From assembly GCF_958298935.1 (NCBI RefSeq), contig NC_084935.1, positions 8,566,001 to 8,630,000 of the forward strand: a stretch of DNA of 64,000 nt. Reading direction: 5' to 3'. The stretch comes from Phragmites australis (taxonomy: Eukaryota > Streptophyta > Magnoliopsida > Poales > Poaceae). Below the pieces are notes generated by a model, which had not been told where the DNA came from, ran no database searches, and saw nothing but the letters and a program-made list of their open reading frames with translations. Below are positions 10,135 through 64,000 of this stretch, piece by piece; position 1 is the first letter of the stretch; the number at the start of each line of letters is the position of its first letter. A program made the translations under genes and the position numbers.

Positions 10135-10277
10135 TCCTAAGAATAGTCTTGGAAAGGTTAAGAGCCCATGAGCTTTATACTAAATTCAGCAAGTGTAAAT
10201 TTTGGTTAAAGGAAGTTGCTTTTCTTAGACATACAATAACAGAAGGAGTAGCAATGGATCATGCTAAAGTCAAAGCA
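10135..10277 (+). pseudogene. Ty3/gypsy reverse transcriptase fragment
   Basis: Reads RLRAHELYTKFSKCKFW followed by a degenerate FLGHxIT-type segment, the C-terminal end of Ty3/gypsy reverse transcriptase. It is very similar to the minus-strand copy at about 34170-34310. It stops at 10277, where CACTA sequence begins with no spacer. The stretch 10014-10134 before it shows nothing recognisable. Confidence 0.7.
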
Positions 10278-11654: not shown

Positions 11655-11891
11655 GTCCTGCCTCCCGAAGGCTCAGCCTCCCAAAGGCTCGGTCTCCCAA
11701 AGCCTCGGCCTCCCGAAGCCCCAGCCTTCCGAGGTCCTGCCTCCCGAAGGCTCAGCCTCCTAAAGGCTCGATCTCCCGAGGCCTCGGCCTCCTGAAACCC
11801 CAGCCTTTTGGAATCCTGCCTCCTGGAGGCTCAGCCTCCCAAAGGCTCGGTCTCCTGAAGCCTCGGCCTTCCGCTGCTTGGGCCGGCTTCC
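11655..11891 (+). repeat. 79-bp tandem repeat, about three copies, in the solo LTR
   Basis: The phrase TCCTGCCTCC recurs at 11656, 11735 and 11814, giving a 79-bp period. Each unit is built of shorter diverged blocks of the type CCTCCCGAAGGCTC. It lies in the U3-like part upstream of the TATA box, the usual place for retrotransposon enhancer repeats (inference). Confidence 0.75.
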
Positions 11892-20276: not shown

Positions 20277-20289
20277 CAACATTACTAGA

Positions 20290-21089: not shown

Positions 21090-23930
21090 AAAGTTGTCGC
21101 GATCATAAAATTCTCCACTATCCTTTATGATCTCCGCAAGTATGAAATGGATGAACAGTTTTTGAATATATGAGACTGTCCTCACGAGATTATTTGTAGG
21201 AATATGTCTGTAGAAGAAAATTAAAATAGTTAGGCACAACTATGAAAAATGCATTTTAATATACTATAATTACACTAATCGGTGGATATACTGGTGGACA
21301 AAAGCGAACGATTTGCAGCATATACCGGGCAATATAGAACCCACAGAGGTTGGTGCCTTGCGGTTGCCTGTGACACTACAGAAATTTGTGCACATTACAT
21401 TTAGTTATATGAAATGCGTATTATAATGGTAAATTGATGTGTGACGGAGGAATTATTACCGGGAACTTATGTTGGTGGGTCGTTGAGGGTTTATCTACCC
21501 GTACAATCCCGCCCATCAATACATACTTCACGAATGCCCTTCTCAACAAATCTGTCATATCTGAATACCTATCTAGGTCATGGTACATCAAGTCAAAGTA
21601 TATGCAGTGTTGATTGTGTGTACAGATATAAACTAGCATTCAATGGTCTTGTAGTTGTACGGTAGAAGAATAAGGTCCTTCGATCCACATGGAGCGACCA
21701 TGGCCTCCGTGACGTATTTTTTGACCTCCCCCGGAGACCAAGTGATTGTTGACCCACATACGACATGTGGGTCGAGGAATCCAATTCTCAAATTCGCTCT
21801 CCTGGCTTCTTGAATCATAAGTCTACACATAAGAGTAATATAGATGAATGAGCATATCAATGAGTTAGGCGGTTCAATAAGCATAGACCATGATTAGTAA
21901 CACTTACAAAGTTCAGCATCTCACTAGACCAACGTCCAGCTTGTTAAGATGGTAGAGGAGGAATAAATCCTCTAAGGTCACGAGGAAGGCTCCAGCTGGT
22001 TTCAGGAAATGTTGCCGCTTGTGCTTGGCGCTGAAAAAGGGAGAAAGATGTTTTTCCTCATGAAACCTCTTCATGTATAGGTCATGCAGAATCATACTTT
22101 CCCAGCCCAATTGCTCTAACACTTTCTTGCTCAGTAACAGCTGGCCTACCACGTAGGTGTTTGATAGAGGTTCTTCTTCTACCTCCTTGCTCTTGTCCTT
22201 CTGTTTGCTAGCTCTGGACTTTCCGGGAGGTGCCATTTTGGCACACTGTTGGCTAGTTTTGCTGGACAATTGTTGTTGCTCATGTGGTGCAGAAGGAGAT
22301 TTGACCTTCGATGGAGCACGACGAAAAGAGAATTCTCCGCCATTGCGTACTGGAGACAGAAGCTGCAGAGGTGGTGGAGGGGCAATCAGTGTTATGAACT
22401 TCTTTGGCCACTGGATAAAGGAGTGGATGGCCTCCCCAAGTGTCCTGACGTCGTCTTCTAGGGGAATAGGAAGTGTGAGGGATGTACAATTTTTGTATAC
22501 CATGTTCACTGACACCCTAGCGTAACCAGACTCTAGCGGGAGTCCGTGGATCATCTGTTCCCTGCTACATGTGAACGCCAAGCCCGTGCCAACCTCAATG
22601 ATGTTATCGGAGCCAACTATTGTGGGTAGTAAGAGCTTACACTTGGTAGCGACCTCTATGTCGTCGACGGGGTATCTCTCGCTATGGACCTCTTTTGGAA
22701 TGTCGTTGCACGGGGGGGGGGGGGGCGTCACCTTCAAATCTGTCGATAGTGAAGTCATATTGATCGAGTATGTTATCTGGATCGTTATCTGGTGCAGATG
22801 TGCAGCTGCTCCGGTCCCAAGCCAGTGGAAATTCAAGTGTTGTGGCTGCATTCTGCTACCTCATTGCTCGTACTCGCTCCTCGACCCATTGTTCCATCCT
22901 TTCTGCAAGCATATCCAGCTATTCTTTCATCCTTGCTTCGAATTCAGCGACAATATCCATTCTTATCTGTTCACGTTCAGTTGCATCTTACTCAGTTTTG
23001 TTTCTTCTTCGGCTCCTATATGAATCGACGTCGTCAGGAATCCCAACTTCCATGGAATGAAAACAACTATGCCACACATGCGACCCAGGTGCTCTTTGTT
23101 CCCCAGAGCTGAGGTCAGTATGTCTTTTTCCTGAGATGGCTAGAATGATCCTTGAGTGGATTCTTCTGAAACTTGTAGGATTCTTTGAGCCACTTGCTCG
23201 GTTTATGGTTTCCTAAAGGTGACAGAACCATCGGCGGAGTGTACGGCCCTTCCTCGGAACCAGTTCTAGGCCCGCCTCTCCGGGATCTATGAACATGATA
23301 TGGAGCGGTTCTCCCGAGCTACCTGCTCATCCTCCTTTTTCTAGTACAACTCCTTGCACGTGTACCCACTGATGCCGAGCCTCTGGGGTGCGTGTACCCA
23401 CCGATGCCAAGCCTCTGGCGCGCCTTGTTAGCCTAACTCTACTGCTAAAATCCTCAGATTTGCACCTTGCCAAAAACTCTACCTATTGATCCGCCAAGTA
23501 GCCATAAGCAATATTATTGGGAACGAGATCCTGCTTCACATATGTATTATACAGCTCGCTCTTGAAGGTCTTCCACACCTTGCCCATCTTGTCTATTGCC
23601 TGTCTTTCCATGTCCTCCAAGGAGCATCATTTAGGAAAGTCAAATTGGGCTTCAATTGTTTCCCATAAGAAGCTTTTCTTGCTCTGCGGCATGGCCTTCC
23701 AGTTTGGGTAGGTTATCCTGACCATTGTCCGTCCAAGTGAGGCGCATGCTCTACGAAATACCACCCGAGCTTGCTGAGGCTGTGTTGGCATGCCTGCCTC
23801 GTTAGCGTGAGTTATGGTGTAGTGACCCATGGGCATTTGGTTTTTGCCCCAGCCACCTCGCTTTCGCTTCAGCACCTGAGTTTCTTATATTTGCTCTTGT
23901 TGTTGAGGAGAAGAGGTCGGAGGTAGTTCG
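21090..23930 (-). pseudogene. CACTA-associated Ptta-like/C48 protease-like protein, broken
   Basis: Reading leftwards: an N-terminal Ptta/En-Spm-like region (GHYTITHANEAG, SFLWETIEAQFDFPK; 23440-23880), the conserved region of the 313-codon ORF 21913-22851 (YARVSVNMVYKNC, TLGEAIHSFIQWPKKF, ILHDLYMKRFHEEK), then the peptidase core: DHW-type His site near 21650, CIYFDLMYHD (about 21590), PQGTNLCGFYIARYM (about 21320-21360), and a C-terminal exon near 21100-21205. The His site is destroyed: a one-base deletion shifts the frame and the Trp codon is a stop. A run of 14 G at about 22712-22725 lies in the 5' part. Confidence 0.75.
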
Positions 23931-30796: not shown

Positions 30797-32666
30797 CCTA
30801 TGTACCTCTCAAACGGGTACATCTGACGTAGGAATATTAGGCCGCATATCATTATCTCTCTCAAGAGGTGAACGATAACATGTACCATGATATCGAAAAA
30901 CGACGGAGGAAAGTACATCTCAAGATGACATAATGTCTTCATCATATCGGCTTGTAAAATATCAAGTACTTCGGGATCGATGACCTTCTGAGAAATTGTG
31001 TTGAAGAAGTAACATAGCTTGGTGATTGTGTCTCGGAGATAGGTCGGTTGGATATTTTAGATTGCAACAAGAAGCATCTGTGTCATCAACACATGGTAAT
31101 CATGAAACTTCATACCAACTAATTTCAAATCTTGCATCGAAACAAGTTTCGAGATATTGGTGGAGTAACTGGATGGAACTTTCATAGCATACAAGCACCA
31201 GCACAGTTCAGTTCTCCCAGCCTCGTTCTACATTTTTTGGAGGGCTCATGTGCCCACTCGGGCCTGATCTTCAAATCAACCAAGTGAAGTCTTGCGTTGA
31301 GGTCATCCTTCGTCTTGCCTGGAATATTAAGTAAAAGATCAACAAAGCTTTCGCACACGTTCTTCTCTACATGCATGACGTCGATGTAGTGGAGAACTTC
31401 AAGGTGCTTCCAATACAGTAGCTCCCACAATATCGATCTCTTCCACATGCCACCGGTATTATCCTTAGATTTTTTACTCCCCTTTCCAAACACAACATCG
31501 AGGTCTTTAACCATATTGTGCGCCTCTTGACCACTGTAGTGCCTTGCACATAAATCTCTCTCCCTCGTTCCGTCGAATTGTTCCTTCAGGTTGCGGTACG
31601 GGTGATACCTGTTAAGGAACCAACGGTAGCGCATGAACACCGTTTTATGCGAGTAGGGTAGCCATATACTCACGGTACCATCTAAGCAATGAGGGCACGC
31701 CGTGTCTACTTGTTTCCTCTGGCCTAAAAGGTTACATAGTGATGGCAAATCATTTATCATGCAGAATAACATGGCATGTAGCGTGACATTCTCTCTTTTG
31801 TACTCATCCCATACTTGCATCCCTTTGTTCCATAATGTTTTTAGATCTTCTACTAATGGTCTTAGGTATACATCAATATCATTCTCAGGTTGTTTTGGGT
31901 CTTGGATAAGTAGTGACATCATCAAGTACTTCCGCTTCATACACAGCCAACGAGGTAGGTTATAAATACTGAGAATAACTGGCCAAGTCTTGTGCCTACT
32001 TCTCATATTTCCAAAAGGATTCATCCCGTCCAAGCTCAAAGCAAACCTTATATTCTTTGGTTCTGCACCAAAGTCATCAAAGATCATGTTAATGTTTCTC
32101 CACTAGGGGGAATCGGCAGGGTGCCTTAGCTTTCCATCTTGCTTGCGGCCCTTCGAGTGCCAGCACAACAATTTGGCCTCTTTTCGATTCGCAAGCAAAC
32201 GCTTAAGACGAGGAATAATAGGCAGATACCACACCACCTTAGCAGGAATACCTTTCTTCACCTCGTCATCGTTTGATTGACTCTTATGCTTGTATCGAGA
32301 TACTTTGCGCACTGGATATGAATGCAAGCCTGATAGATCTTTATGGTAAAAGATACAGTCGTTCGAGCATGCATATATCCTTTCTACATCCATCCCCAAT
32401 GGACAAAGAATATGCTTTGCTTCGTATGTGCTTTTGGGCAGCTCATTTCCATCTGGAAGCATGTCCGATAAGAATTCTAATAGCACCCTAAAACTCTTGT
32501 CCTACCAACCATCGATTGCTTTCAATTTAAGTAGTTCAAGCGCAGATGACAACTTTGTGTATTCCAGTTTGCATCCAAGGAACAACGGCTTCTCCGAGTC
32601 CTCAATCAAGCACAACTTTGTGTACTCTTGGTTTGTACGAGAACCGTACATCCAGCCACGATCCAT
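30797..32666 (-). pseudogene. CACTA TNP2-type transposase (Transposase_21), broken
   Basis: Starts MDRGWMYGSRTNQEY (32666), the transposase-associated domain, which is shortened: the cysteine-rich middle is missing and the frame jumps to the ALELLKLKA segment. The middle (32103-32486) and core (31182-32087) carry family signatures: LSLDGMNPFGN, WPVILSIYNLPRWLCMKRKY, IDVMHVEKNVCESF. An in-frame TAG lies after IDGW (about 32500) and another replaces Gln in the ADxxQWR position near 32105. A frameshift follows near 31200. The C-terminal part (FFDIMVHVIVHL region, about 30900) is cut at 30797 by the solo LTR. Confidence 0.85.
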
Positions 32667-33795: not shown

Positions 33796-35313
33796 ATCCA
33801 AATCATGCATGGGTAATTCTTCTCATGCACTTTTAACTATTTGGATGCGTAGGAGACCACTTTGCCATCTTGCATTAGGACACATCATAATCATTGCCTA
33901 GAGGCATCATAGAATACCGTAAAGTCCTTGTAGATATGTAGCAAGGTTAGCACTGGGGCTGTGGTTAGTCTTTTCTTTAGTTCTTGGAAGCTCTTTTTAC
34001 AAGCTTCTATCCATTGAAATGTCTTTTCCTTTCGGGTTAGTTCAGTCATAGGCCTTGCTATTTTAAAAGAAAAATCCTTCTATGAATTGCGATAGTATCC
34101 TGCTAGTCCAAGAAAACTTCTGATTTTTGTCACATTAGTCAACGGATTTCAATCCGTGACTGCTTTGACTTTAGCAGGATCAACTACTACTCCTTCTTCT
34201 GTTATCGTATGTCCAAGGAATGCAACTTCCCTTAGCCAAAATTCATACTTGCTGAATTTAGTATAAAGCTCATGGGCTCTTAACCTTTCCAAGACTATTC
34301 TTAGGTGTTATTCGTGCTCTTCGGAACTCTTAGAGTAGATGCATATGTTGTCAATAAAGACTATGAAAAACTTATCTAACTCTTCAATGAATACTTTATT
34401 CATCAAGTTCATAAAGTAAGCATGAGCATTGATTAATCTAAAGGACATCACTGTGAACTCGTATATCAATACTGAGTCACAAAGGTTGTTTTAGTTATGT
34501 CACTTTCTCGAACTTTCAGCTGGTAATACCTTGATCTTAGGTCAATTTTAGAGAAGAATTTGGCTCCTTGTAGCTGATAGAAAAGGTCATCGATCCTGGA
34601 CAATGGGTATTTATTTTTTATGGTCACTTCATTCAAGGCTCGATAATCTACACACATTCTAAGGCTGTCATCTTTCTTCTTTACAAATAAGACTGTTGAT
34701 CCCCATAAAGATAAACTAGGTCTGATATATCCCTTCTCTTTCAATTCTCCTATTTGCTTATTTAACTATGCTAGTTCATTGGATGTCATCCGATAGGGTC
34801 TTTGATTATCGGAGTGGTTCCAAGGATAAGATCTATGATGAACTCTATTACCCGGTTAGGTGGCATTCTCGTTAGTTCCTCAGGGAACACATCTGAGTAT
34901 TCACTTACTATGGGCACCTCTTTCAGAGTTGTGGCTTCCAAGTTACACAACATGAGCTTGTGTTTAGGTCATTTGGGCTGATATTTCACTCTAATGTCAT
35001 GGTGATTAACTAGGCTGACATTTCAGTGCCACAAGCTATGTTGCCTTGATGCTTGGCTAACCAGACAATTCCAAGAATGACATCTATTCCTTCAAAATGG
35101 AGAACTACTAAGTTCGCTAGGAACTCTACCTCACTTATTATGATTTTAACCCGGGGAAATCCTAATAGGCACTTAATTTTTGCTCTGGGACAGTATATCA
35201 TAAGGGGGGTTTTAAGCAGAATTGCTAGGATTCTATGCTTAGCAACAAACATTGATGATATAAATGAATGTGAAGCTCCAAAATTAAATAATATTGTTCT
35301 AGGGTTAAGTTGA
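33796..35313 (-). pseudogene. Ty3/gypsy pol, 5' part: protease, reverse transcriptase, RNase H start
   Basis: Reading leftwards: aspartic protease region (about 35010-35313) with FNFGASHSF where DSGA is expected, so the catalytic Asp is lost, and FEGIDVILG further on. Next is the RT N-terminal half (34466-34744: [34 protein letters not shown], here named by its VDYRALN and FSKIDLRS landmarks), then degenerate RT with the FSKYEFWLREVAFLGHTI-type segment near 34250, and the RNase H start (FYDASRQ, then KVHEKNYP) ending at 33796 where the CACTA element begins. Gag and the 5' LTR are missing beyond 35313, so the element is truncated. Confidence 0.85.
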
Positions 35314-35814: not shown

Positions 35815-36692
35815 TACTACTACAAAACCTATTTTTCGAGACACCTAGGTTTCATTTCTACAGGCGGTTCATAGGACAAACCGCCTGATAAAGTGGCTGC
35901 AGCCCCGTGCAGCTGAGGACCGCATGTGAAAACTAATTTCCACAGGCGGTTCACATAAGGAACCGCCTGTGGAAATGGAGCATTTACACAGGCGGTTTCT
36001 TATGTGGACCGCCTGTGAAAACTAATTTCCACAGGCGGTTTCTTATGTCAACCGCCTGTGGAAATAGTCCATAAATACTTCATCGTCTCAGCCAGCTCCA
36101 TTCAGACAGGCTTACTGTTTCGAACAGTAAGCATTTACTATGGCGGCGGATTTGGAAAATAGGTGGGAAAGGTTTTGTTTTTGATTTCCTTGGAGGAGCC
36201 AAATAAGGTATGTATATCTCATCCCTAGCTTGCATTTTTTTAAGTTTAGATTTAGATTTAAGGCTAAATTAGAGTTTAAATGTGATCTAGAGATGCTCAT
36301 GGTTCTTGCCATTTAGATCATCAAATTAGCTCAAATTTGTTGCAATATTGATTTAATTGTGTAGATTCACATGATTCTAGTATTATATTTTAAAAATGTA
36401 GCTAGAATGTGATGTTTTTTAGCCATAGGAGGTTTCATCATGAATGGGGATTTTTTTCTCTAGATCTAGATCTAGATCTAGGGAGAGGGAGAGGGAGAGG
36501 GAGAGGAAGAGAGAGAGTAATGAATTCACATTATTTTGAGCCATAAATTTACGTCAATGTAGATTCAATTGCGTAGACATATTATAATCATAACAGGCCC
36601 ATATTTTCCTTTTAAAAAAATCTTTTTAATTCTGATTTTTAAATTAATTAATTAATTAATTAATGTATCTAATTTTGTGGTTGAAGTTAAAG

Positions 36693-39186
36693 ATGGACAG
36701 AGCATGGATGTATGACGCGTCAAGACATGGAGAAATATACATCAAAGGACTCTCTGTTTTTATTGAAGCCGCAGAGAAGGACGCTTTAACTAAGAAAACA
36801 AAGGAAATATATTGTCCATGTTCTGACTGCAAGAACCAGAAATTATGGTACAAATCAAGTATAATCAAATCACACTTGATCTTGAGAGGTTTTGTTGAGG
36901 ATTACAAATGTTGGTCCAATCACGGAGAACAACGTACAAGCGAACCAAACCAGGACATCGCTGCTGATCAAGTAGATGGTGATGATGAGGGAGCAGTTGA
37001 AGGCGACACTGATGTTATGATGGATGATGATGCCGATTTTGATCTGGATGATGATGCTGATTTTGATCTGGAGGAAATGTTGTGCCACGCAGAACCGCAT
37101 GTTTTAAGGAACACGAGAGGTTTAGATAATTTTGAGGCGTTACAAAAGGCATCAAAGAAACTTTTGTATGAGGAATCTAAGGGCTGTGATAAGGACTTTA
37201 CGGTGTTGCATTCGGTGCTTGAACTTCTAAGGTTGAAGGCCAGCAATGGATGGTCCGACAAGAGTTTCTCGGATCTGTTGAATCTCTTGGCAAACATGCT
37301 TTCGAAGCCTAACTCCTTGCCCACCACCACTTATCTGGCGAAGAAGCTTATCTGCCCGTTGTCATTGGATGTGCAAAAAATACACGCGTGTCCGAACCAC
37401 TATATCCTCTACCGTAAAGAGTACGAAGCCTTGGATAGATATCCAGTGTGCAATGCGAGTCGGTACAAGAGGAATGATGATTGTGAGGACGAAGATGCTT
37501 CCGCCAACGCGAAGAAGAAAAAGAGTAATGCTGGTCGTGACGAAGAAGACACTTCTTCCAACACGGAGAAGAAGAGAAGAAGTCCTGCGATGGTGATGTG
37601 GTACCTACCAGTGATCCCCCGCTTGCAGCGACTGTACTCGAACCCTAGGGACTCTGAACTGTTGTGTTGCATTTCGATAAGCGCAAGAAGGATGGAACTA
37701 AGCTTCGACACCCCGCTGATGCTAGGCAATGGAGAAAGTTCAATGCCATGTATCCAGAGTTCGCTGAAGAACCAAGGAATGTAAGGTTCATGTTGAGTAC
37801 CGACGGAATGAATCCTTTCGGTGACATGAGCACCTCACATAGCACATGGCCAGTGGTCCTGGCCATCTACAACCTTCCTCCATGGCTATGCATGAAGTGG
37901 AAGTACCTTATGCTGTCCATTCTTATCCAAGGACCGAAACAACTGGGCAACGATATAGATGTGTTTCTGGAACCACTAATGGAAGATATGGCGAAACTGT
38001 GGAACGAGAGGGTCCGGGTGTGGGATGAGTTCCGACGACAGTACTTCACGCTGAAAGCAATGATTTTCGTTACCATCAATGATTATCCCGTCCTTTTTAA
38101 CCTATCAGGACAGGTTAAAGGGAAGTAAGGATGTGCAGTGTGCTTGGATGAAACCGCGTCTGTGTACCTTCCGTACTCATAGAAGGTAGTGTACACGCGA
38201 CACCGAAGGTTCTTACTCAGAACTCGCAGATGCCGCAATATGAAGAAACATTTTGACAACACGGTTGAGGAAGATACTGGCCCGAAACCTCGCAGCGGGG
38301 CACGAGTGTTTCAAATGGTCAGTAGAATCAAGGTTGTTTTTGGGAAACCGCCGAAGGGTAAAAAGAGGAAGAAAAGTGAGACGCTGACCAGCACGCTGTG
38401 GAAGAAGATGCCAATTTTCTTTAAGTATTTGCCCTACTGGAAGGACTTGGACGTCCGTCACAGCATCGATGTCATGCACGTTGAGAAGAATGTGTGTGAT
38501 AGCATCCTTGGCCTCTTACTGGACATACCGGGTAAGACAAAGGATGGAATCAAGTCACGTAAGGACTTGGTGCATTTTGAAATCAGGCCAGAGCTACACC
38601 CTGAAGACAAACCAAATGGGAAACATTATCTTCCACCGGCTAGCTACTCTCTGACACCTGAGGAGAAAAAGGCACTGTGCAAGTGCTTACGTGGGATGAG
38701 AGTCCCGACTGGCTACTCATCCAATATTAAGAATCTAGTCTCGATGAAAGATTTGAAGCTAATCGGCATGAAGTCTCACGATTGTCATGATGATAACGCA
38801 GATGCTCCCTATTGCAATCAGGGGTATCAAGTCAAGATACATAAAGGTGGTCATCACACGGTTGTGTCACTTCTTTAACGCAATTGCTCAGAAGGTGATC
38901 GATGCTGAAAAACTGGGTGCTCTACATAGTTACTTGGTAGAGACTTTGTGCCAACTTGAGATGTGCTTCTCTCCATCCTTTTTCGATATCATGGTACACT
39001 TCTTGGTTCACATCGTGAATGAGATGTATGCGTTTGAGCAGTATATGGGCATTCTCAAGGGCTATGTACAGAATCGTGCTCACCCAGAGGGGTTCCATGA
39101 TCGAGGGCTACAGTACCGAAGAAGTCGTTGAGTGTTGCATCGATTATATAAAAGATTCTAATCCGATTGGTCGATCAAGAATCTAA
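36693..39186 (+). pseudogene. CACTA TNP2-type transposase, frameshifted
   Basis: Starts MDRAWMYDASRHGE (36693): a complete transposase-associated domain with IYCPCSDCKNQK, then an acidic DDDADFDL repeat. The Transposase_21 core follows: TDGMNPFGDM, YNLPPWLCMKWKY, IDVMHVEKNVCDSI, FFDIMVHFLVHIV. Damage: a one-base deletion near 37669, a TAA at 38126-38128 and a TAG near 38180, a small deletion near 38785, and a one-base insertion near 39091. The final frame ends at a stop near 39185. It is the best-preserved TNP2 in the window over its first 325 codons. Confidence 0.85.
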
Positions 39187-47400: not shown

Positions 47401-50400
47401 GCCGCGCCGCGCGACAAGACAGTCGGGTCTAGTGTCTCGGCAGGGAAAGCGAGCGTCCCGTGACGCACGTGGCTCCTGCTTCCGAGTGCTGGATCCTCGT
47501 AAAGACATCTCCAATAGATATAAATAGCTATTATCTTTTAGCTTAGAGAATATTTTTTTAAAATTTTATATGAATCTTATCGTTCATAATTAATTCTTAA
47601 TACCTCATATAAAAAAAATATGTTGAGATGATTTGTAAGTATTAGCTTTTTATTTCTTATCTTTAAGAGCTAGTATTTGTTTCTCTTTCTTTCGTGAGAT
47701 ATATAAAATCGTATTAATCATAATATTAAAAATATATTCTCAATTAAAAATTAATAATTATCTCTGACCATTAAAGATGCACTAACAGGACAAGTGTACA
47801 GGCTTAGTTTATCCGTCTGGTCTGATACGGTTGGCCTAGTTGTGACTTGTGTCGGCCAGAGGGAGCTTCAAGTTCACACGCGAATCGAGAGGAGTGAAAA
47901 TAGGTAGCACTTGCGATTAATTGGTGAACTCGAGCTCGTGTTGGTGCAAGCTTTAGACGTACGGAATACCGCTATATATACATTAGCGTCTCTAGGCAGA
48001 TACTAGGGCTTGGGATGTACTACTTGTTTTTTCGATAAATTTTTTTATTATCCCTTACAATAATAATAAGAGATATAATTATATGCGAACGGGCGTAGAG
48101 ACCGATTGGCAAAGTCATAAGGAAGTAGCCGAGCCAGCCGTTGTTTGAAACCCCTAGGTCACACACCCCTATTAAAAATAGCCTTCAATAAAAAATTCAG
48201 ATTAGAGAGGTTCGATTTTTTTGAAAAAATATATAATTATATAAGAATTTACTTTTAAATTTTGTATCACCGAGATACACTAGCTCGAAATAAGTAGAAC
48301 AACACAAAACAAAACCAAAATCTCATTTGACAGGGGAAAACTCTCTCTACTGCTTCTGTTTCACCAAAACACCAAATTTGTTTCTTGCACCATTTTTTAT
48401 TCCAGTACGTACGTTTGATTCCGGCCTTCACAGAGCTTGGCAAGATGCAATAAAAAGAATGACAGGGAGAGTCCTACCAAGTGTTTGGATCTTGTGTTCT
48501 TGCAAATTAGAGGAGAAAAAAGGTGTCTGGATTGAGGAAATATGTATCAAGGTTGATTTGATCGTTGATTTGAAAGGCAAGACGACCTGAACTCGGCCGG
48601 ACCGATACAGTCGTACTCGTGGCGCACGAATGATATATTCGCTGCCGGGGAATGTTCCTAATCCTATAGGCTGGTGTGCACCGGTGTGATCTTTCTAGGA
48701 AGATTTGGGGCAAAGTCAAGCGCGCCCTACTTGAAGATAAGCATGTAGTAGTAGTATACATATTGATGCAAGCATATTTTAACTTTAATGCGTACGTCAA
48801 GCATGCATGAAGAACAAAAGTTGAAGCTTGCTACATGCCGATGTTACAGTGCGACTACTGTTACATCTATAAGAAACTAGCAAGTAGTTTATTTTAATAG
48901 CTTGACTTGTTTCATCATAATATTTTGTTATGATAATATTTTATTAATTGTATTTTACATTGACTTTTTATTTGTGTATTTTATTTTTATAATATTTTGA
49001 TTTTTAAGACTATTTGATATGGATTTTTCTTTTTTTCTATTATAACCCTAATTTGAATTATTATTTATTATTTATTTTATTTGGAATCTTTATTTAGATA
49101 TTTTATTTCCAAACAATGTGAAAATCAAACCGCTAATTTTTCATAATTTTTAATTCTGAATTTTATCTATTTATTAATAATATTTAATATGGACTCTTTA
49201 GTTTAATCTAGACTATTAGATATTTATAATAATGAGTGGTCTAGATTCTTTTTTTAATTCGTGATAATTTTGTGATTTTTAGAGTAAATATGGTAGCTTC
49301 TTTTAACCTTAAATAATAATATAATAGATAGATGGTGCCATGCATAACCAAATTATATTTTTTCGCCGTTGGATCTTGGACATTGTTTGACATTAGATAT
49401 TTGTATTCTAGATAGACCACGCATTGAAAAACTAGACCCTATCTGCTAATTATATGTATCAACTGCTTGAATACAAAGTTTAAAATATCAGCACAACAGG
49501 TGTATAGTTCAGTGGAACATCGCAACGTTGTTTTGGTGTGTTTAGGGGTTCTTATTTAGTTATTTCACACATCCCATGACTTTTGCGAACGACAAATAGG
49601 TTTAAAACTTCTACAAATTCTAGAAATGATTGGAGCTATCAAATCAACATTTGCGCTATCTTATTCGGCATCAAAATACATAATTTTAATTTAGCACATG
49701 CCTTGGTTTCGGAACAAAAAACTGGTAGTTTAGATAGTTACTTGTGCATTCTTTTTTTTTTTTTGCTAACGAAATAAGTATATTATTCTTGCACATTTGT
49801 GTACAATGAAATATCTCAAACAACAGAAAAACATGTAATGCAGGAAAAGCATAAGTTATTGAATTAAAGCAGCTACATCGTGTTAAAAAGAATGGATTTT
49901 TTTTCAAGAACAACAAAAATGGATATGCATTTCGGGAAGCAAACCAATGCACAACTGACCTTGTAAATTATTTTTTACCAGATCCCAACCTCGCAAGACT
50001 AATTTTCCCCTAAAAAACCAAAACCTTGCAACACTAATGGCAATGCACGTCAATTAACTCTCTCTCAAAGACGCATAAAAATTGGGGGAAAAACTAATTA
50101 TACTGATTAAGAAGGAGAATGAATTCGTCGGTAAAATTGCGTCAAATTTACGAATTGGGACTATCTTAAAAAAGAGATTAATGGATTGGGACTAACCTTT
50201 GGAGGAATTCACAACCAGGGGCGTGAGCGTCACCGTGTCGGGGGTTGTAGCGAAGAAGAGATCCTTCTCGTACCTGATGTCGCAGCGCACCCCAAGAAGC
50301 CTCCCACCCACCCTCCCGGCGAACCACTTGGGCATCTGGCCGATGAGGTCGTCGAAGCACCCCCGGCACTGCGCCGGCGCCAGGTCGGGCGTGCACTGCG

Positions 50401-51010
50401 CGAGCGCGTACACGTTCATGTCCTCCGGCGGGAACCCGGCCAGGCCTGTGGCGTACCTCCTGGTCGCGTTGCTGGCCGCGTCGGTCACCACGCCCACGAG
50501 CCGCGTGACCAGGGCGTCGAACGCGGCGACGTTCCCGTCGGACACGTTGTTCATGTTCGTCGCGACTCTCTCTGGCAAGTTGGAGGCGCCGGCGAGGAAG
50601 TCCTGGTCGGAGAACCGGAGCTGGCACTGGTCGTAGTACATGGTCGCGTCCTTGCTGTCGCTGCAGTACTTCAACGCCTGGCGGAACCCCGCCTGGAGGC
50701 AAGCGACGCACTGCCCGCCGGTGAAGTCCCCGCGGCAGAGCACGAGCCCGTATGCCGTGTCCGGCGCGGCACCGAAGGCCCCCGCCGAGAATCCCGACGC
50801 CGAGGCGTTCCTTGGAAGCACATCGGAGAGGGTGGCGAGGTTTGCCGCGAACGTACTGTTGGGCAGGTACGTCCGCCGGACGCTCGTGGTCGTGGGGTCG
50901 CAGGAGTAGTCGATGGGGTTCGCCACCGGCACGGCCCCGCCGTCACCCGTCGCCGGAGCCGCCGGCGAGGAGGCGGTGGCCAGGAGGAGGAGGGGCAAGA
51001 GGACAAGCAT
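44429..51010 (-). CDS. Cysteine-rich receptor-like protein kinase (CRK, DUF26-RLK), complete, 7 exons
   Basis: Exons: 51010-50197, 46159-46052, 45934-45759, 45669-45459, 45371-45134, 44992-44842, 44740-44429. All introns have GT/AG borders, phases agree, and the sum is 2010 nt (669 residues), the usual CRK length and exon plan. The protein has a signal peptide, two DUF26 domains (C-x8-C-x2-C in [13 protein letters not shown] and [13 protein letters not shown]), one transmembrane helix (about 277-300) followed by RKRRRR, then a Ser/Thr kinase. Kinase features: GQGGFG (about 357), Lys in IAIKRL (about 378), HRDLKASN (about 473), DFG (about 493), [11 protein letters not shown], so an active RD-type kinase is predicted. 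CRKs sit in the plasma membrane and signal in immunity and oxidative stress. Intron 1 is about 4 kb. No lesion was found. Confidence 0.93.
46160..50196 (-). other. Intron 1 of the CRK gene, about 4.0 kb
   Basis: The donor AAAG/GTTAGT at 50196 and the acceptor TGTCCAG at 46160 are in matching phase (1). It holds a hAT-like MITE (46401-46934), a GC-rich block with an ORF at 47126-47527 that matches nothing I know, long AT-rich stretches (48870-49500), and no other gene. CRK first introns are normally short, so insertions account for the length. Confidence 0.8.
46401..46934. mobile_element. Possible hAT-like MITE in CRK intron 1
   Basis: The left edge CAGGCTTTTAAATCGCG and the right edge GCTAGCTATTTACAACCTTG are imperfect inverted repeats. 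The interior is AT-rich with motifs like AGCTATAGCTAGCTATTT also seen near 14920-15010. No clear 8-bp target duplication was found, so the class is tentative. Confidence 0.45.
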
Positions 51011-55380: not shown

Positions 55381-58300
55381 TGTAACACCCAAATTTCAAT
55401 ATTTGCAACAATTTAAAATTTTGCTAGAAATTAACTTAGGTGTTGCAACTTAGCTCAATAGGAAATTAATTTCTAAAATTAACTTGGCCTAGGATAATTG
55501 TTTGAATGCATTCATGCCATTGTAGATGCAATAAGGTTTTATTGGGTGGAAAAAGTTTGCAAAATTTCGCTAGGTTTCGCCACTTTAAAACCTCATTGGA
55601 AAATATGCTGAAATTCAATTGGAAAAAGGTTTTGAAAATAAAGAAATTCATTTGGGCCGAATCCCTTTTTCCGGCCCAGCTTTCCCCTCTCCCCCTCCCC
55701 TCTTCCCCTCCCGCGTGTGCCGGAATTCCTCTCAGCGCCGGCCCAAGCCAGCGCCGAGCCGACCCGCCTCCCACTCCAGCCGGCCCGTCACCCCGCTCTC
55801 GCTGACGTGTGGACCCGCCGAGCCCCGAGCCGAAGCCACGCACCGAGCCTCGAAGCCGTCGGCTTGCCTTCTTCCTCCTCCCGACGCCTGACGCCAGAGC
55901 TCTCTTTTGCCGCCGTCGTTTCAAATCGAAGCCGCCCCGCGCATTGAATCGCGAAATCAATCGCATGGCCGTGATCCTCCCGCTCCCCACTCTTGATTCC
56001 GACCGTTTCCCCTTCGTTTCCCCTTCCCCTTGCATGGAAACCATAGTTGGAATAAAATTTGGGGCCGCCGGCCAATCCTCTCGAATCCGGCCGCCTCCAT
56101 TCCCCTTTCGGCTATTTAAGCCCTCCATCGGCATTGTTGCTTCATTCCCCACCTGAACTGACCTTTTTCCCCTCGATTTGTGTTCGGGTTTAAGCCAGCG
56201 CTGAGTCCTCCATTGCTGACGGTAAGGAGCACGGCCGCTGCCCGTTTCTTCCATGGCCGAGCCTCAATTGACCTTGTTCCTCGCTCAAACGGTTCTATAG
56301 GGTCTCGGTCTTCATCCCTCGGCGCTTTTTGGAGTGTCTCTCGTGACCGGACTCCACTTCCGTCGAAGACCGATGCGCCGCCGGCCTCCCTCACCGTCGC
56401 CAGCCATCTCCGGTACTCCTCTGCCGCCGTCGAACCCGTGGTGAGATTCCCTTTCTCCCCCTTTCTCTTTTCCGCCGCTCATCGTTGAGTATCATGGCCG
56501 GATGCACCGTTTGGCGCATCGCCAGCGAGCTCGCCGCCGCCCCTACCGCTGCTGGCCGTCGCCCCCTCCGTTGGAAGCCGCCGGCACCGCTGTTTCAAAC
56601 CCCAGCTATCGGATCTCCGATCTATGGCTCGGATTAGACCGGCTGGGGGCATTCCCCTTCGGTCCACCATGGACCGGTGGACCGGTGTGTCCTCCGTGGT
56701 CCACAAGCCCCGTGAACCTTTTCTACGCCTTTTCCTTTTAAGAATTAAATCTGTTTTGCTTTATGACGTCATAAATCGAATTTTCCAGTATAAAAACAAT
56801 TCGGATTTTCTCTAATAATAAGGAAATTATGCAGAAACACCCCTGGAACTTCAAATAATCATAACTTTTTGTTCGTAGCTCCGATTTAGGCGATTTTCGC
56901 GCTCAAATGATCGTAGCGTCGCATAGAATCTGTTTATAGGATTTTTATCTAGTTTTAGGAATATTTGGTGTACTGTTCTTATGTTAGATTGTGTGCTCAT
57001 GTAGACGATTCAGTCCAGGAGTTCGGCAACCTTCAGGAGGAAGATTTTGAAGGACCTGTGCAACACTTCGACGAAGGCAAGTGTCTTGACCATGTTGCAA
57101 ACCCAGTTTTTACATAAAGTGAGTCTTTGTCAAATATGCATGTTGTTTTACAAAAATGGGTAGTATAGCAAATACTAGTGTTAGATATAGATGCTTTATC
57201 CATACAAGATCATCATGTTTATGCTTAGCCATGCTTTAGATGAACATGTAGCGTGTAGGTGATGAATCTTGAGTTATAAACTAAAAATTGATATAGGAAG
57301 AATATCATGGAAACTGATATTGTTAAGGGAGTTAACAACAAAGATAATTGGGGTTTTGGGCAAGAAAGGGCTACTTTTCCCAACATGGTTGGTTGTTTGG
57401 AAATATTTGGTAATATACCCTTATGGGGTTATTGGAGGTCTTGCCCAAACCATTTTAAGGACCGGTTCGTGGAGCGAACATCCATGGCAAACAGAGCAAC
57501 CACGAGACCAATATGGTACGGCTTGGCCTAGTAACTAGATGTTCTCCCAGTGTTGTATGAGCCAATCGGATGTGTAGAAAAGGAAGGGTTACTTCCCGAT
57601 TCTACCCGGCACAAGAGGGGGCTTCTGGGGTGGAGGGTTACTGCACTTATGTACAGAGGTGAAACCTCAGTGGGCAAAGTGCATACTGAGAGGCTCTTTG
57701 GAAAATCCTCGTAGTGATCTCTTGGCGCACACCCCGGAAGTGTGTAAGGTACCATCAGGTGCCGACAACAGAGAAGATCACGACTCATGGGTAAAGTGCA
57801 CAAACTCTGCAGAGTGTCAAACTGAATATTCAGCCGTGCTCACGATTATGAGCAGCATGGACCCTCACATGATTAGTCGGGTGGGTGTTTCTCTTGGTTT
57901 GGGAATTGGGTTGAATTCCCGGAGGTTAAAGAAAATCTTTGGGTATTGGGTTGAATTCCTGGAGGTTAAAGAAAATCTTTGGGAATTGGGTTGAATTCTC
58001 AGAGGATAAAGAAAATCTTTGCTACATCTTTTCCTGGTTAAAATAAAAATTTGTTTTCCATAGTTCAGGGCTAAAAATCGGCTTTTATGCAAATAAAACC
58101 CTAGAATAGGAAACCTTGTTTCAAGCCACCATATCAAATTCATTTTTCCAACACTTGTTGAGTATTGGAAATACTCACGCTTGCTGTTTCAGAAGGTGAA
58201 ACCTTTGAAGAATTTCCTGAGGACGACTTCCCCGAGGATGATGCTGAGTTCTAGGCTTGTGGAACTCTCAGTCGGCTGCCTGTTGGCTTGGAGCTGCGCC

Positions 58301-58482
58301 GTTCCTTTTTCCGCTGTGGTGTTCTTTTCTTTAGACCCATGTGTGGTCATTTTGTAATAATTTAGCGTTGTAATAAGAAGCATTGTGTCTGTTACACTAA
58401 TGAAGTCGCTATATGTATGAATAACTGATCCTGGCATACATATAGTTTACATCTGGTTTTGGTCTTAAAACCGGGTGTGACA
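55381..58482 (+). repeat. 5' LTR of the Ty3/gypsy element, 3.1 kb
   Basis: Begins TGTAACACCC and ends AACCGGGTGTGACA; the ends are the inverted TGTxACACCC/GGGTGTGACA typical of this group. A TATA-like CTATTTAAG sits at about 56112-56120 after a very GC-rich stretch (55680-56110). The long part downstream of it is AT-richer and holds a 40-bp triplicate repeat. Long minus- and plus-strand ORFs in 55466-56740 are products of the GC-rich composition. Confidence 0.9.
57904..58021 (+). repeat. 40-bp tandem repeat, three copies, in the LTR
   Basis: Units at 57904-57943, 57944-57983 and 57984-58021 share AATTGGGTTGAATTC followed by GAGGTTAAAGAAAATCTTTG. The third is the most diverged. Confidence 0.85.
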
Positions 58483-58486
58483 GAAG

Positions 58487-58499
58487 TGATATCAGAGCC
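58487..58499 (+). promoter_or_regulatory. Primer binding site (initiator tRNA-Met type)
   Basis: TGATATCAGAGCC starts four bases after the LTR end. It matches the plant initiator tRNA-Met complement TGGTATCAGAGC with one mismatch. This is the start of minus-strand DNA synthesis. Confidence 0.85.
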
Positions 58500-58654
58500 G
58501 TGTTGACCGTAGGTCGCAACCCTAGCTAGAAATGGTCCGTAATAAGGATTAATTTATAAAAACTATATTTGCAAAAACTTCATTTACCCTTGAGCTTCAT
58601 TTTACTGCTTTATTAAAAATGTTTTACTGATTCTCTCTTGTTTCCAAACTGTAG

Positions 58655-59452
58655 ATGGCCCGCATCAAGAAGACTGCCCGCAAGACCACCGGCGGCTATG
58701 TTCCTCCTCGTGCCCCGGCCACCTTTGCACCCAACGCCTCTGCTGGACCCAGCCGTGGAGTCACCATTCCTAAGAACGGAAGCAAGAAGTTGTACCATTC
58801 CAAGGGATTCGAAGCAGGGAAGGCACCAATGATACTGGTGGAAATGCTGCAGCGTCTAGGGTACACCAAGGCGCCTGTCTACCACAGTCTTCGCCAGATT
58901 CGTCCAGGACGTGAGGAGTGGACAATGGAGGTGTGCATCTACGGCTCTCCAGAAGGCGATGACAATTATGAGATCGTGGGCATCCACAAAGCAATGGCCG
59001 TCCGTGCAAGCTTCGAAGCAGGGATCCGAGATGCAGCAAGGCAGGCACTGGCTCGTGTCTGTGAGCGCCACAGGAGTACTCTGAGGGGGACTTCCTATGA
59101 CTACTTCCCTCATCGAGAGCGTGGAAGCCGGGACATCAAGGTGAAGGCAACCACCCACGAGCACAGCGGTGTGGCTCGAGAGCAGGTGCTGCTGGCCACC
59201 ACACTGCACGAGGACTTGGATGAATCTTTGGACGAGCTTCAGGACACCCGCAAGCGCCTTCGTGATGCCGAAGCACAAATCAGGGAGCTGCAGAAGAGCC
59301 TCAATGGGATGTCTAGCTCTTCCAACTCAAAGGAACAGTCCGTTCGCTCGCCCTCTCCCAAGAAGCCACGCCGCAGTTATCCTTCTAGTGAGGAGTCTTC
59401 GGAGGACGACGACCAGTCAACTGCCAAACCATCTGTCGGGTCGCAAGCTTAG
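58655..59452 (+). CDS. Accessory ORF of the Ty3/gypsy element with a histone-H3-tail-like N-terminus
   Basis: An intact 265-codon ORF lying between the primer site and gag. The N-terminus MARIKKTARKTTGG matches the histone H3 tail start (ARTKQTARKSTGG) at 10 of 13 positions after Met, including the R2, K4, R8 and K9 equivalents; weaker ungapped identity goes on to about residue 38 (P16, A21, T22, A24, S28, A29, G34, V35, P38). No histone fold follows. The middle (residues 45-150) is an unrecognised, probably folded region (WTMEVCIYGSPEGDDNYEIV). Residues about 185-215 form a predicted coiled coil (EDLDESLDELQDTRKRLRD), and the tail is a serine/acidic stretch with a PKKPRR basic patch that could be a nuclear signal. 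Two short upstream ATGs (about 58531 and 58619) precede the start. The function is unknown; a chromatin-mimic role is inference. Confidence 0.75.
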   Translation: MARIKKTARKTTGGYVPPRAPATFAPNASAGPSRGVTIPKNGSKKLYHSKGFEAGKAPMILVEMLQRLGYTKAPVYHSLRQIRPGREEWTMEVCIYGSPEGDDNYEIVGIHKAMAVRASFEAGIRDAARQALARVCERHRSTLRGTSYDYFPHRERGSRDIKVKATTHEHSGVAREQVLLATTLHEDLDESLDELQDTRKRLRDAEAQIRELQKSLNGMSSSSNSKEQSVRSPSPKKPRRSYPSSEESSEDDDQSTAKPSVGSQA

Positions 59453-59723
59453 GAGAGTATCTGAAGCCAGTTTAATAAGTCGTCTAGACCGTTTATGTTG
59501 TCTAGTCCTGGTGTCTCCATGTCTGTTTTGTGATCATGTTATGAGTTGGATCTTTGCGTGATTGTCGATGTAAGGTGGATGCTCTTTCTCCACATTGCAT
59601 CAGTTATCTTATAATATAATAAATAGTTGGGAGTCTTTTTGCTCTTGTTCTTCCTGTCTCAATCATATCTTGTCATCTTTGCTTTTTCCCTCTGTTCTCC
59701 GCTCATACCTTGGCAACCAGCAG

Positions 59724-60862
59724 ATGGTGAACACCAGGAGAAACCCCCGCACCGACAACAACGAAGTCAACAACAACCAGCAACTACCGCCTCCTCCTCC
59801 ACCACCTCAATTCAACATGGAGCAAATGATGGCCATGCAAACGCAAATCCTTCAGGGACTAGCTCAAACTATGGCAAATATGCAGCAGGCCCCCGTGCGC
59901 ATGCAAGCCCCTCCTCCTCCACCGCAGAATAAGTTGGGAGAGTTTATGAGCACCAAACCCCCAGTGTTCTCACAGCCTGTGGAACCAATGGATGCTGACG
60001 ACTGGTTGAAAGCCACAGAGAAGAAACTCCGGATAGCTCAGTGCAACAACAGGAAAAGGTCTTGTTTGCTTCACATCAGCTTTCTGGGCCCGCGGCAGAT
60101 TGGTGGGACGCATACGTCAATGGCCATGAAGACGCACAAGCCATTACATGGGCGGAGTTTCAGACCAGTTTCCGCACTCACCATATACCAGCTGGGGCAA
60201 TGAAACTCAAAAAGAAGGAATTTCATGAGCTTAAGCAGGGAGCTATGTCTGTAAGTGAATATGTGGCAAAGTTCACACAACTATCAAGGTATGCCCCCGA
60301 GGATGTCGATACAGATGAGAAAAAGCAGGAGCACTTCCTAGAGGGCCTGAATGATGGTATCCAATATGCATTGCTTCCCCAAGACTTCGCAAGCTTCCAG
60401 GCTATGGTAAATAAAGCCCTGGTGGTGGAACACAAACGCCGCCAGATGGATCATAAGAGAAAGATGTCTTCTCAAGGTCAAGGATCAAGCAGTCACTCCT
60501 GACCCCGCTATAACCCACCTCAACAAGGACCCATATTCCGCCAACAGAACCAGCACCAGAATCAGAACCAGCATCAGAATCAGAACAAGCTACAGATGCA
60601 AGCTCAGTGCTCAAACTTCCAAGCCCCTCGTCAGACCCAACCCCCGACGCCTCAACAGAAGTTTGGTGATCAGGCACCTTCCACGGGAAAGGCATGTTTC
60701 GTCTGTGGTGAAGTAGGGTATTATGCCAATAAATGCCCAAGGAAGAAACCCAACAACTCTCCCGTGCAGTATGGCAATGGGAATGCTCCAAAGCAAGGAC
60801 AGCATCAAGCTCCGGGCCGCAATGGGAACCCGGCACCAGCTCCAACCAACCGGGCTCAATAG
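59724..60862 (+). pseudogene. gag (capsid and zinc knuckle), frameshifted
   Basis: Starts MVNTRRNPRTDN (59724) with a proline-rich linker, then the capsid domain (TKPPVFSQPVEPMDADDWLK; WWDAYVNGHEDAQ; EFQTSFRTHHIP; KKEFHELKQG). A one-base deletion near 60048 moves the frame. A TGA at 60500-60502 (probably from CGA) and a TAG at 60860-60862 (probably from CAG) interrupt it. The zinc knuckle CFVCGEVGYYANKC (about 60692-60733) has Tyr instead of the ligand His. Confidence 0.9.
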
Positions 60863-62264
60863 AATTACGCGCGTGGGCGAATCAACCATGTCACTGCTGA
60901 AGAAGTCCAAGAAGCGCAAGATGTGGTGCTTGGTATGTTCCTTGTCAACTCAAACCCAGCATCGGTTTTATTTGATTCAGGAGCATCGCATTCATTCATC
61001 ACTACAAGATATGTTGCAAAGTATAATCTGCCAATTGTACATATGAAGCAGCAAATGATTATTAGCTCTCCTGGAGGAGAGATGAGGGCAAAGTATATAT
61101 GCTCAAAGCTAAGCCTTTATATAAGGGGGGGTAGATTTCTTAGCCAACCTTGTAGTTCTGGAATCCAATGGAATTGATGTCATTTTGGGTATGGACTGGC
61201 TGGCAAAATATAAGGGAATCATAGACTGCGCCAGAAGAGCAGTTCAACTGACTAATAGAGAAGGCACGCAGGTTGAGTTTGTTGCAGCTATACCCTCGAC
61301 AGAGGAAAGCTCACTAAATCAAATGAAGGGTATTCCTATAGAAGAGATCAATGTGGTGAACGAGTTCCCGGACGTTTTCCCCGATGATCTTCCAGGTATG
61401 CCGCCAGATCGTGAAATAGAATTTGTGATTGAGTTAGTGCCAGGAATTGCACCTATATATAAGAGACCTTATAGAATGGATGCCAATCAGCTGGCAGAGC
61501 TCAAGGAGCAAATCCAAGAGCTGTTAGACAAAGGGTTTATCCGCCCTAGTTCTTCACCCTGGGGAGCTCCGGTCATCTTTGTACCCAAGAAAGATGGAAC
61601 TTAAAGGATGTGCATAGACTATCGGGCCCTCAATGAAGTGACTATCAAGAACAAATACCCACTGCCTCACATTGATGGTCTGTTTAATCAGTTGAAAGGA
61701 GCGTGTATTTTCTCCAAGATTGATCTTCGGTCCGGATACCACCAGTTGAAGATTCGCGCTTCGGATATTCCAAAGACCGCATTCGTCACCCGATATGGCC
61801 TTTATGAGTTCACGGTAATGTCTTTTGGCTTGACAAATGCGCCAGCATACTTCATGTACCTAATGAATAAGGTCTTCATGGAGTTTCTGGACAAGTTTGT
61901 CGTAATGTTTATTGATGATATCCTGGTCTTCTCCAAGGACAAGGAAGAACACAAGGAACACTTAAGGATGGTATTACAGAAACTCAGAGAGAACCAGCTT
62001 TATGCCAAATTGAGTAAGTGTAAGTTCTGGTTGACAGAAGTACCCTTCCTTGGTCATATTATTTCATCAGGAGGTGTGTCCGTAGATCCATCCAAAGTAA
62101 GGGATGTCCTAAACTGGAAAACCCCGCAGAATGTTTCAGAGATTCGCAGTTTCTTGGGTTTAGCAGGGTATTACCGCTGATTTATAGAAGGTTTTTCCAA
62201 GATAGCGAAACCAATGACAGAACTACTGGGAAAAGGAGCAGAATTCAAATGGACAGCCGCTTGA
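60863..62264 (+). pseudogene. pol: aspartic protease and reverse transcriptase, interrupted
   Basis: The protease is VLFDSGASHSFIT (about 60968-61005) with the DSGA active site kept, then IDVILGMDWLAKYKG (about 61165-61210). One extra G in the G-run near 61126 shifts the frame. The RT carries RPSSSPWGAPVIFVPKKDGT, a TAA at 61602-61604, then VDYRALN-type [25 protein letters not shown], the polymerase motif [12 protein letters not shown] (FIDD, about 61905-61940) and [13 protein letters not shown] codons at 62178-62180 (expected Arg) and 62262-62264 end the frame before RNase H. Confidence 0.92.
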
Positions 62265-64000
62265 GAAGCCAGTTTCAACGAATTGAAGAAAAAGTTGACC
62301 ACCGCGCCAGTTCTTATCATGCCAGACACCCAGAAATCGTTCTCTGTGTATTGTGACGCGTCTCGACATGGGTTGGGATGTGTGCTTATGCAGGAAGGTC
62401 ATGTGGTAGCATATGCATCTAGGCAGTTAAGAAAACATGAGGAAAATTATCCGACCCACGATTTGGAATTAGCTGCAGTGGTTCACGCCCTAAAGATTTG
62501 GAGGTACTACCTCATTGGCAACCGATGTGAAATATATACGGATCATAAAAGCCTAAAATATATTTTCACCCAACCGGATCTTAATCTGCGGCAACGTAGA
62601 TGGTTGGAACTAATCAAGGATTACGATGTGGGAATACATTACCACCCTGGGAAAGCAAATGTTGTGGCAGATGCCCTGAGTAGGAAGGGATATTGCAATA
62701 TGACTATGTTGCGAGGGAGTCAGCCGGAATTATGCAAGGAGTTTGAGAGATTAAATTTAGGATTTGTTGCCGACATGGATGCAACAGTAATAGAAATGAA
62801 GTCACAATTGGAACAAAACATCCAAAAAGGACAATGGGAAGATGAGAAAATAAAGGAGATCAAAGAACTCATAAAAACAAATAAGGCACCGGGATTCTCA
62901 GAAGATAATCAAGGAACAGTGTGGTTTGGGAAAAGGATTTGTGTGCCCAACCAAAAAGTTTTGAAGGATTTGATTTTGCGAGAAGCACACGATTCTGTAC
63001 ATTCCATTCACCCCGGGAGCACTAAAATGTATCAGGATCTGAAAGAGTATTATTGGTGGTATGGTATGATGAGAGATGTTGCAGAATATGTGGCTTTGTG
63101 CGATACCTGTCAGAGAGTAAAGGCAGAACATCAAAGGCCAGCAGGATTATTGCAACCCTTGAAAGTTCCAGAGTGGAAGTGGGAAGAAATTGGTATGGAT
63201 TTCATCGTCAGGTTACCCTGCACTCAAGCAGGCTACGATTCTATCTGGGTAGTGGTGGATCGCTTAACGAAAGTTGCGCATTTTATCCCAGTCAAGACAA
63301 CATATTCAAGTGCGAAACTTGCTGAGTTGTATAGGTCAAGGATTGTGTGTCTACATGGAGTACCCAAAAAGATCATGTCGGACAGAGGTACCCAATTTAC
63401 CTCTCGCTTCTGGCAGAAACTACACGAATCCTTGGACACTAAACTGAACTTCAGTTCCGCATATCACCCCCAAACCGATGGACAGATAGAGAGGACCAAC
63501 CAAGTGTTGGAAGACATGTTAAGAGCCTGCACCTTGAAGTACAAGCAGAGTTGGGATAGAAGCTTACCATATGCAGAGTTTTCTTACAATAACAGCTACC
63601 AAGCCAGCCTCAAAATGTCTCCATATGAAGCTTTGTATGGTAGAAAGTGCAGAACTCCGCTGTATTGGAACGAAACTGGAGAAAGCCAAGTGTTTGGGCC
63701 AAAAGTTCTTAGAAGAGCAGAAGAGCAGGTTCAGGCCATACGGGAAAACTTGAAGGCCGCACAGTCCCGACAAAAGAGTTATGCGGATAATCGACGGAGA
63801 GGATTGACCTTTGAAGCGGGGGATATGGTGTATTTGAAAGTCTCACCTATCAGAGGTCTCCGCAGGTTTAAGGTTAAAGGAAAATTGGCACCCAGGTACA
63901 TTGGACCATTCAGGATAATCGCTAGACGTAGAGAGGTAGCCTATCAGCTGGAACTGCCATCTACACTGGCTGACGTGCATGATGTATTTCATGTATCTCA
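62265..64000 (+). pseudogene. pol: RNase H and integrase, open to the window end
   Basis: One frame stays open for at least 578 codons. RNase [59 protein letters not shown]. Integrase: zinc-binding [13 protein letters not shown]...CDTCQRVK, catalytic core Asp in GMDFIVRLP (about 63196), Asp in SDRGTQFTS (about 63380) and Glu in [16 protein letters not shown] (about 63500), then a GPF-type C-terminal module ([11 protein letters not shown]). The expected chromodomain lies beyond 64000. The domains look intact, but the ORF depends on a gag-pol broken upstream. Confidence 0.93.

Follow-up and report, generated by a model that had tools for sequence, protein, structure and literature searches.

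The accessory open reading frames of grass Tekay (Del) retrotransposons are the closest described counterparts of the gene reported here. In the accessible text of PMC3485330 and PMC11728184, an ORF0 or 5' aORF is placed between the primer-binding site (PBS) and gag in RIRE3, RIRE8, Retrosat2, FRetro3, maize Tekay and sorghum Sb7; the elements have LTRs of about 3 kb with TGT...ACA-type ends, the encoded proteins diverge rapidly and have no known function, and those of maize Tekay and sorghum Sb7 have a DRBM-like predicted structure. The accessible part of PMC3485330 assigns no clear role in transposition to the ORF0 of Retrosat2, RIRE3 and RIRE8, and surveys, as far as their accessible sections go, list extra 5' ORFs (PMC6317226; PMC7264820). 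All of these traits recur in an element at the end of the 64,000-nucleotide stretch of Phragmites australis DNA analysed here (the window), whose resemblance to RIRE8 and Retrosat2 in long LTRs and a 5' ORF was judged by description only (PMC3485330, accessible text).

The element is a Ty3/gypsy LTR retrotransposon with an LTR pair, a PBS and the order reverse transcriptase (RT), RNase H, integrase (Table 1). Its partner LTR starts 281 bp beyond the window end and differs over its first 620 bp from 55381-56012 by 21 mismatches and one gap. The PBS-like sequence resembles the initiator-Met tRNA type. ORF0 lies between this site and gag, as a preliminary description of the window had proposed, and is open in a copy whose gag-pol frame is interrupted; no Pfam match at E up to 0.01 was found for the gag start. 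The same description had placed a chromodomain in related elements. The ORF0 element itself proved to carry one at the C terminus of its integrase, as chromoviruses do, with a PF00385 score 1.5 bits under the curated cut-off of 25.1; four of the five weak PDB matches of this domain are named chromodomain-type proteins.

Table 1. Features of the ORF0 element at the end of the window
Feature	Position	Strand	Remarks
5' LTR	55381..58482	+	3102 bp, ends TGTAACACCC...GGGTGTGACA
PBS-like sequence	58487..58499	+	TGATATCAGAGCC, by eye
Pyrimidine-rich stretch	58631..58654	+	putative splice-acceptor-like, TAG at its end, abuts ORF0 ATG
ORF0	58655..59452	+	accessory protein, 265 aa, open in this copy
H3-tail-like start of ORF0	58655..58696	+	MARIKKTARKTTGG, 14 codons
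dsRNA-binding-type fold, ORF0 residues 56-138	58820..59068	+	predicted; helix, three strands, helix
Long helix, coiled-coil-like, ORF0 residues 172-219	59168..59311	+	predicted
gag start	59724..60203	+	159-aa open stretch, directly after CAG
RT fragment	61608..62180	+	PF00078, E 7.5e-35
RNase H and integrase	62319..64000	+	run past the window into an SH3-like domain, then the chromodomain
Integrase chromodomain (L101)	about 137-232 bp past window end		PF00385, E 5e-5, 23.6 bits

The window holds several other features. On the minus strand, 18494-20279 and 33810-34657 hold an older gypsy element broken up by insertions, with pieces of RT, RNase H and integrase; its chromodomain remnant (18778-18494) has three stops and is 52.6% identical to the chromodomain of the ORF0 element. 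With 17 relatives as queries, no second ORF0 was found in the 64-kb window, either for the older gypsy element or elsewhere. Stress-antifung domains (PF01657) are present in two separate minus-strand ORFs at 1287-2168 (E 3.4e-35) and 50195-51010 (E 4.4e-29), and transposase pieces at 31185-32087 on the minus strand (Transposase_21/tnp2, PF02992, E 1.1e-64) and 36663-37781 on the plus strand (Transpos_assoc, PF13963, E 1.7e-23). Tandem-like direct repeats with units near 16, 47 and 322-337 bp were seen at 9262-11873 and 21324-22589, and long inverted arms, 86% complementary, at 10275-11213 and 21651-22589.

The H3-like start of ORF0 and its conservation

Aligned without gaps, the start of ORF0 agrees with plant H3 (MARTKQTARKSTGG) at 11 of 14 positions when Met is included, and at 10 of 13 with H3 residues 1-13 in exact N-terminal register, the count that had been given before. 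The probability of at least 10 of 13 at this register is about 1e-9 from the composition of ORF0, and 200,000 composition shuffles of the protein reached a maximum of 7 identities of 13. When the 127,924 twelve-residue words from a six-frame scan of the window were compared with MARTKQTARKST, the ORF0 start scored 9 of 12 and the next best word 6. The equivalents of K4 and K9 are kept in this copy and those of K14, K18, K23, K27, K36 and K37 are lost; the preliminary description had listed the same pattern short of K18 and K37. It had also traced a weaker identity to about residue 38. That holds for this copy, in which residues 15-39 match plant H3 at 9 of 25 positions (shuffle mean 2.6; at least 9 in a fraction 0.0001 of 20,000 shuffles), but beyond residue 14 the relative P0002 matches at only 5 of 20, and we do not count H3 homology out to residue 38 among the conserved features.

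When the whole of ORF0 was compared with PDB sequences by phmmer, the best E value was 0.019, so the database significance of the single copy is weak; the best 60 of the 109 matches at E up to 10 were all H3 or H3 chimeras and variants. A profile of the ORF0 family also had H3 as its best match (E 0.0021), and the same profile without the tail had no H3 among its 39 matches. ORF0 is thus a non-histone protein whose start resembles the H3 tail more closely than chance would give. It is not a histone H3 protein: no histone family was found among its Pfam matches, and the predicted core behind the tail is helix, three strands, helix in place of a histone fold.

A search with the whole 265-residue protein returned three relatives, two of which start MARVKQTARKTTGG and MARTKNTARKSTGG, while the third (P0003) has no H3-like start and looks chimeric (PF00521). 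A profile of three sequences yielded eleven proteins, 10 of them with an H3-like start, and eight of these ten are 31-40% identical to the query in local alignment. Named relatives come from Urochloa humidicola and Miscanthus floridulus; no relative was found in a viral-contig collection. As a guard against search bias, 23-120 residues were removed from each of nine query sequences. This tail-less search scored 7999 candidates and returned 76 proteins, a set that does not contain P0004, P0005, P0006 and P0008 from the profile search. The tail stands at the first residue in 14 of the 76, and it is present in 11 of the 15 proteins of at least 240 aa. The other 62, without a tail at residue 1, are mostly short fragments. 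Four of them are long: P0012 and P0013 are N-terminally cut, their alignments to P0010 beginning at its residues 38 and 48, and P0015 and P0053 match relatives only past their own first 30-100 residues. Many of the tailed relatives recovered in this way have a core identity of only 30-45%. Family members without the H3-like start had been named in the preliminary description as the sign of a chance match; the tail-less searches instead recover the same start in divergent relatives.

Searches of the 848-Mb assembly (28 contigs) gave at least 145 matches to ORF0, and the core of a distant relative, used as query, hit at least 150 places. Fifty of the latter were examined, 30 extracted automatically and 20 hand-picked, and a recognisable tail (at least 6 of 12 in any frame) was found in 48, with 45 at 7 of 12 or better. 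Over all 100 own-genome loci, among them some recovered with tail-bearing queries, 97 reach at least 6 of 12, the exceptions being L058, L073 and L094. The start of locus L089, MARTKQTARKVTGG, has 13 of 14 residues of H3, which makes H3 1-13 itself the simplest ancestor; in L009 the K9 equivalent is lost and replaced by N. At L068 (G000:C4:752500-754500) the ORF0 frame has an H3-like start, LTRTRRTARKQVGG, which follows TTTAG and lacks an ATG at its first codon; this may be either a lost or a non-AUG start.

Since many own-genome loci are copies of a few subfamilies, a set of representatives gives the fairer count. Twenty-one were picked by hand, namely 13 of the 17 alignment rows, P0072 and seven own-genome subfamilies; the near-duplicates P0001, P0011 and P0065 and degraded copies were omitted, and P0008 was counted with a gap at T3. 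All 21 have Met, R2 and K9, and A1 is kept in 19, T3 in 16, T6 in 20 and R8 in 19. Position 4 is K in 14, R in six and L in one (K/R in 20), and position 7 is A in 12, P in eight and T in one. Conservation is lower at Q5 (5), S10 (6), T11 (11), G12 (8) and G13 (13). The first ten residues of ORF0 are thus the H3 tail, A-R-T-K/R-x-T-A/P-R-K, placed exactly at the N terminus and conserved across subfamilies otherwise diverged to about 30% identity, and the H3-tail mimic first noticed in one copy is a real property of the family. In pairwise comparisons of 13 representatives, residues 2-10 have a mean identity of 0.72, the linker 0.20, the core 0.35 and the C-terminal part 0.27; the only nine-column windows kept better than the tail are those over the DAARQA helix.

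Close copies were used to estimate selection. Of 34 loci, 25 have an open frame of 262-268 aa, and 24 were retained after one (266 aa) was dropped for length. Their pN/pS is 0.30, and ORF0 is under purifying selection as a constrained accessory protein. In the same copies the tail codons (the first 14; pN/pS 0.41) show no constraint beyond that of the remaining codons; codons 2-10 compared across 13 divergent copies give 0.33.

Predicted fold, putative splice sites and possible origin

The core of ORF0 is predicted to adopt a dsRNA-binding-type fold followed by a long helix. The modelled order of elements is the alpha-beta-beta-beta-alpha of dsRNA-binding domains, and the predicted fold of about residues 52-141 is closest to the plant DRB proteins DRB7.2, DRB4, DRB3 and HYL1, from which the core differs in having only 14-18% identity to them. 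An initial model built from three sequences was poor (mean pLDDT 42) and was replaced by the later one. No Pfam domain scores above its cut-off in ORF0, and no dsRNA-binding family is among the best 25 of the 42 Pfam families listed. Lysines of the KKxAK type are usual at the second helix of dsRNA-binding domains. The second helix of the core in this copy, located by eye, reads FEAGIRDAARQAL; such lysines are not evident in it, so RNA binding should not be assumed.

The ATG of ORF0 is directly preceded by AG in 95 of 97 copies, and by TAG likewise in 95 of 97; the stretch before it has a pyrimidine fraction of 0.71 against a background of 0.51. A similar splice-acceptor-like, pyrimidine-rich stretch with CAG precedes the gag start (59700-59723). 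The arrangement suggests that ORF0 and gag may be carried on separate, alternatively spliced messages by way of these putative acceptors.

Eleven uninterrupted full-length H3 matches were found in the same genome, others being in pieces. Nine H3 gene starts were read, and in the seven interrupted genes the first coding exon ends after K23, with GT next (by eye). In three of these seven TAG stands directly before the ATG, as it would if the putative ORF0 acceptor had been inherited from such a gene, but acceptor-like AGs are also seen further upstream (by eye). The first 42 nt of ORF0 match a host H3 gene (L104) at 36 positions at best and the next 24 nt at 8, so that similarity drops after codon 14. 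This does not prove at codon level that the tail descends from H3, since the shared amino acids force most of the 36 matches. Capture of the first exon of an H3 gene by the element, as judged from these patterns, is plausible, not proven.

Candidate readers and rival explanations

Published contacts of plant H3-tail readers can be set beside the residues kept in ORF0. According to the accessible text of the respective reports, AGDP1 contacts A1, R2, K4, A7, R8 and K9me2 of H3 and does not contact T3, Q5, T6 or S10 (PMC6208443); ADCP1 uses R2, K4 and K9me2, does not contact A7 or R8, and is weakened by phosphorylation of S10 (PMC6318295); and SHH1, which is tied to Pol IV, reads methylated K9 together with unmethylated K4 (PMC7617993). 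For the AGDP1 positions, 17 of 210 position sets of equal size are conserved as well or better, and for ADCP1 18 of 120, a weaker result; the fit of the kept residues to AGDP1 contacts is only suggestive. Chromodomains grip H3 positions 5-10. Conservation at these positions is equalled or exceeded by 173 of the 210 sets, and a chromodomain footprint is not favoured. Moreover, the accessible part of PMC6317226 describes the chromodomains of plant type II retroelements as lacking aromatic-cage residues, with their partner unknown. The preliminary description had envisaged an element encoding both an H3-K9-like peptide and its reader. Tail and chromodomain do occur in one element, but the idea that the element's own chromodomain is the reader is not supported, given the weak conservation of positions 5-10, the P at position 7 in eight representatives and the lack of a cage reported for type II chromodomains, and this version is less supported than one with host partners.

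The reading that we favour, while granting it a little less than an even chance, is that a captured H3 tail has been retained for its action on H3-tail readers or silencing writers of the host. We infer every step of it beyond the presence and conservation of the tail. The tail would descend from a host H3 gene, removal of Met would expose A1 as in H3, and host K9 methyltransferases of the SUVH type would methylate the K9 equivalent. The methylated tail would then compete with nucleosomal H3 for readers of R2/K4me0 and K9me (AGDP1/ADCP1, SHH1), or might alternatively occupy the silencing writers themselves. The long helix could make ORF0 multivalent, and the effect would be to blunt the loop, made up of H3K9me and RNA-directed DNA methylation, by which long LTR elements are silenced. 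The strict N-terminal place and the residues kept argue for partners that would hold the free H3 N terminus and K9 together, and the predicted DRB-like fold points to small-RNA pathways. Persistence of the tail in relatives from tail-less searches, its exact register and the 10 of 13 identities lend this reading support from sequence comparison. Against it stand the retention of T6, which AGDP1 does not contact, the frequent P at position 7, the R or L at position 4 in seven representatives (six and one), the lack of extra constraint on the tail codons within the 24 close copies (0.41 against 0.30) and the loss of the K9 equivalent in L009. A fuller version, which we consider doubtful, is that a grass LTR-retrotransposon lineage took an H3 gene's first coding exon from its host and joined it to a dsRNA-binding-type domain, giving a spliced, multivalent decoy with a free N terminus that is K9-methylated by the host and soaks up AGDP1/SHH1-type readers. 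If true, this would be a transposon decoy built from the silencing mark's own substrate, at the point where histone-based and siRNA-based silencing meet.

Other explanations account for part of these observations. That a basic start rich in Ala and Thr resembles H3 by chance would fit the weak single-copy E value, but the composition estimate and the window scan speak strongly against it and the family-wide conservation, with the same start in 21 divergent representatives and 13 of 14 H3 residues in L089, refutes it; we give it practically no weight. It is unlikely, in our judgement, that the tail is a once-captured H3 fragment kept merely as a basic start for nuclear import or nucleic-acid binding, with no reading of marks. 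Tolerance of R at position 4 in six representatives and the common change of A7 to P would agree with such a role, yet it leaves the retention of the non-basic T6 (20 of 21) and A1 (19 of 21) unaccounted for, and the block stays at the very N terminus while the linker behind it is not kept. K14 and K23 of H3 are contacts of import receptors, and their equivalents are absent in this copy. On the other side, published 5' aORFs are predicted to be nuclear in the accessible text of PMC11728184.

We regard as rather improbable a role in the element's own life cycle, in which the K9-methylated tail would be a docking peptide that either occupies the integrase chromodomain until heterochromatin is reached or recruits host K9me readers carrying the pre-integration complex. 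The chromodomain in the same element and the K9 present in every representative are what such self-tethering would call for. It is opposed by the conservation of positions 5-10, worse than that of most position sets, with Q5 and S10 variable and A7 often P, and by the missing cage residues reported for type II chromodomains (PMC6317226, accessible part), and it leaves the conservation of A1 and R2 unexplained.

Comparison with described histone mimics

Both the accessory ORF and the DRB-like fold of its product have been published, and the H3 tail was not found in print; the word "histone" does not occur in the accessible text of PMC3485330 and PMC11728184, and no report of H3-tail mimicry in a transposable element was found in a literature search that reached subscription journals and bioRxiv only in small part. 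A tail kept at the N terminus amid divergence makes the function of ORF0 approachable by peptide binding, and ORF0 becomes a specific candidate for the way in which abundant plant elements confront H3K9 methylation and RNA-directed DNA methylation. The persistence of a near-copy of the H3 tail across very divergent relatives suggests that these elements may imitate the tail by which the host marks them for silencing.

Histone mimics have been described from viruses and among host enzymes. In the accessible part of PMC12937675, influenza A NS1 is a foreign protein with a short H3-tail sequence visible to the host H3-tail machinery, as ORF0 may be; its mimic is C-terminal and resembles the H3 tail around K4. 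G9a/GLP, automethylated and bound by HP1, likewise has an H3K9-like motif in a non-histone protein, which in the accessible part of PMC9768651 is internal and belongs to a host enzyme. The ORF0 motif differs from both in lying at a free N terminus, where it spans K4 to K9, and in belonging to a family of retrotransposons; it would extend histone mimicry to a transposable element.
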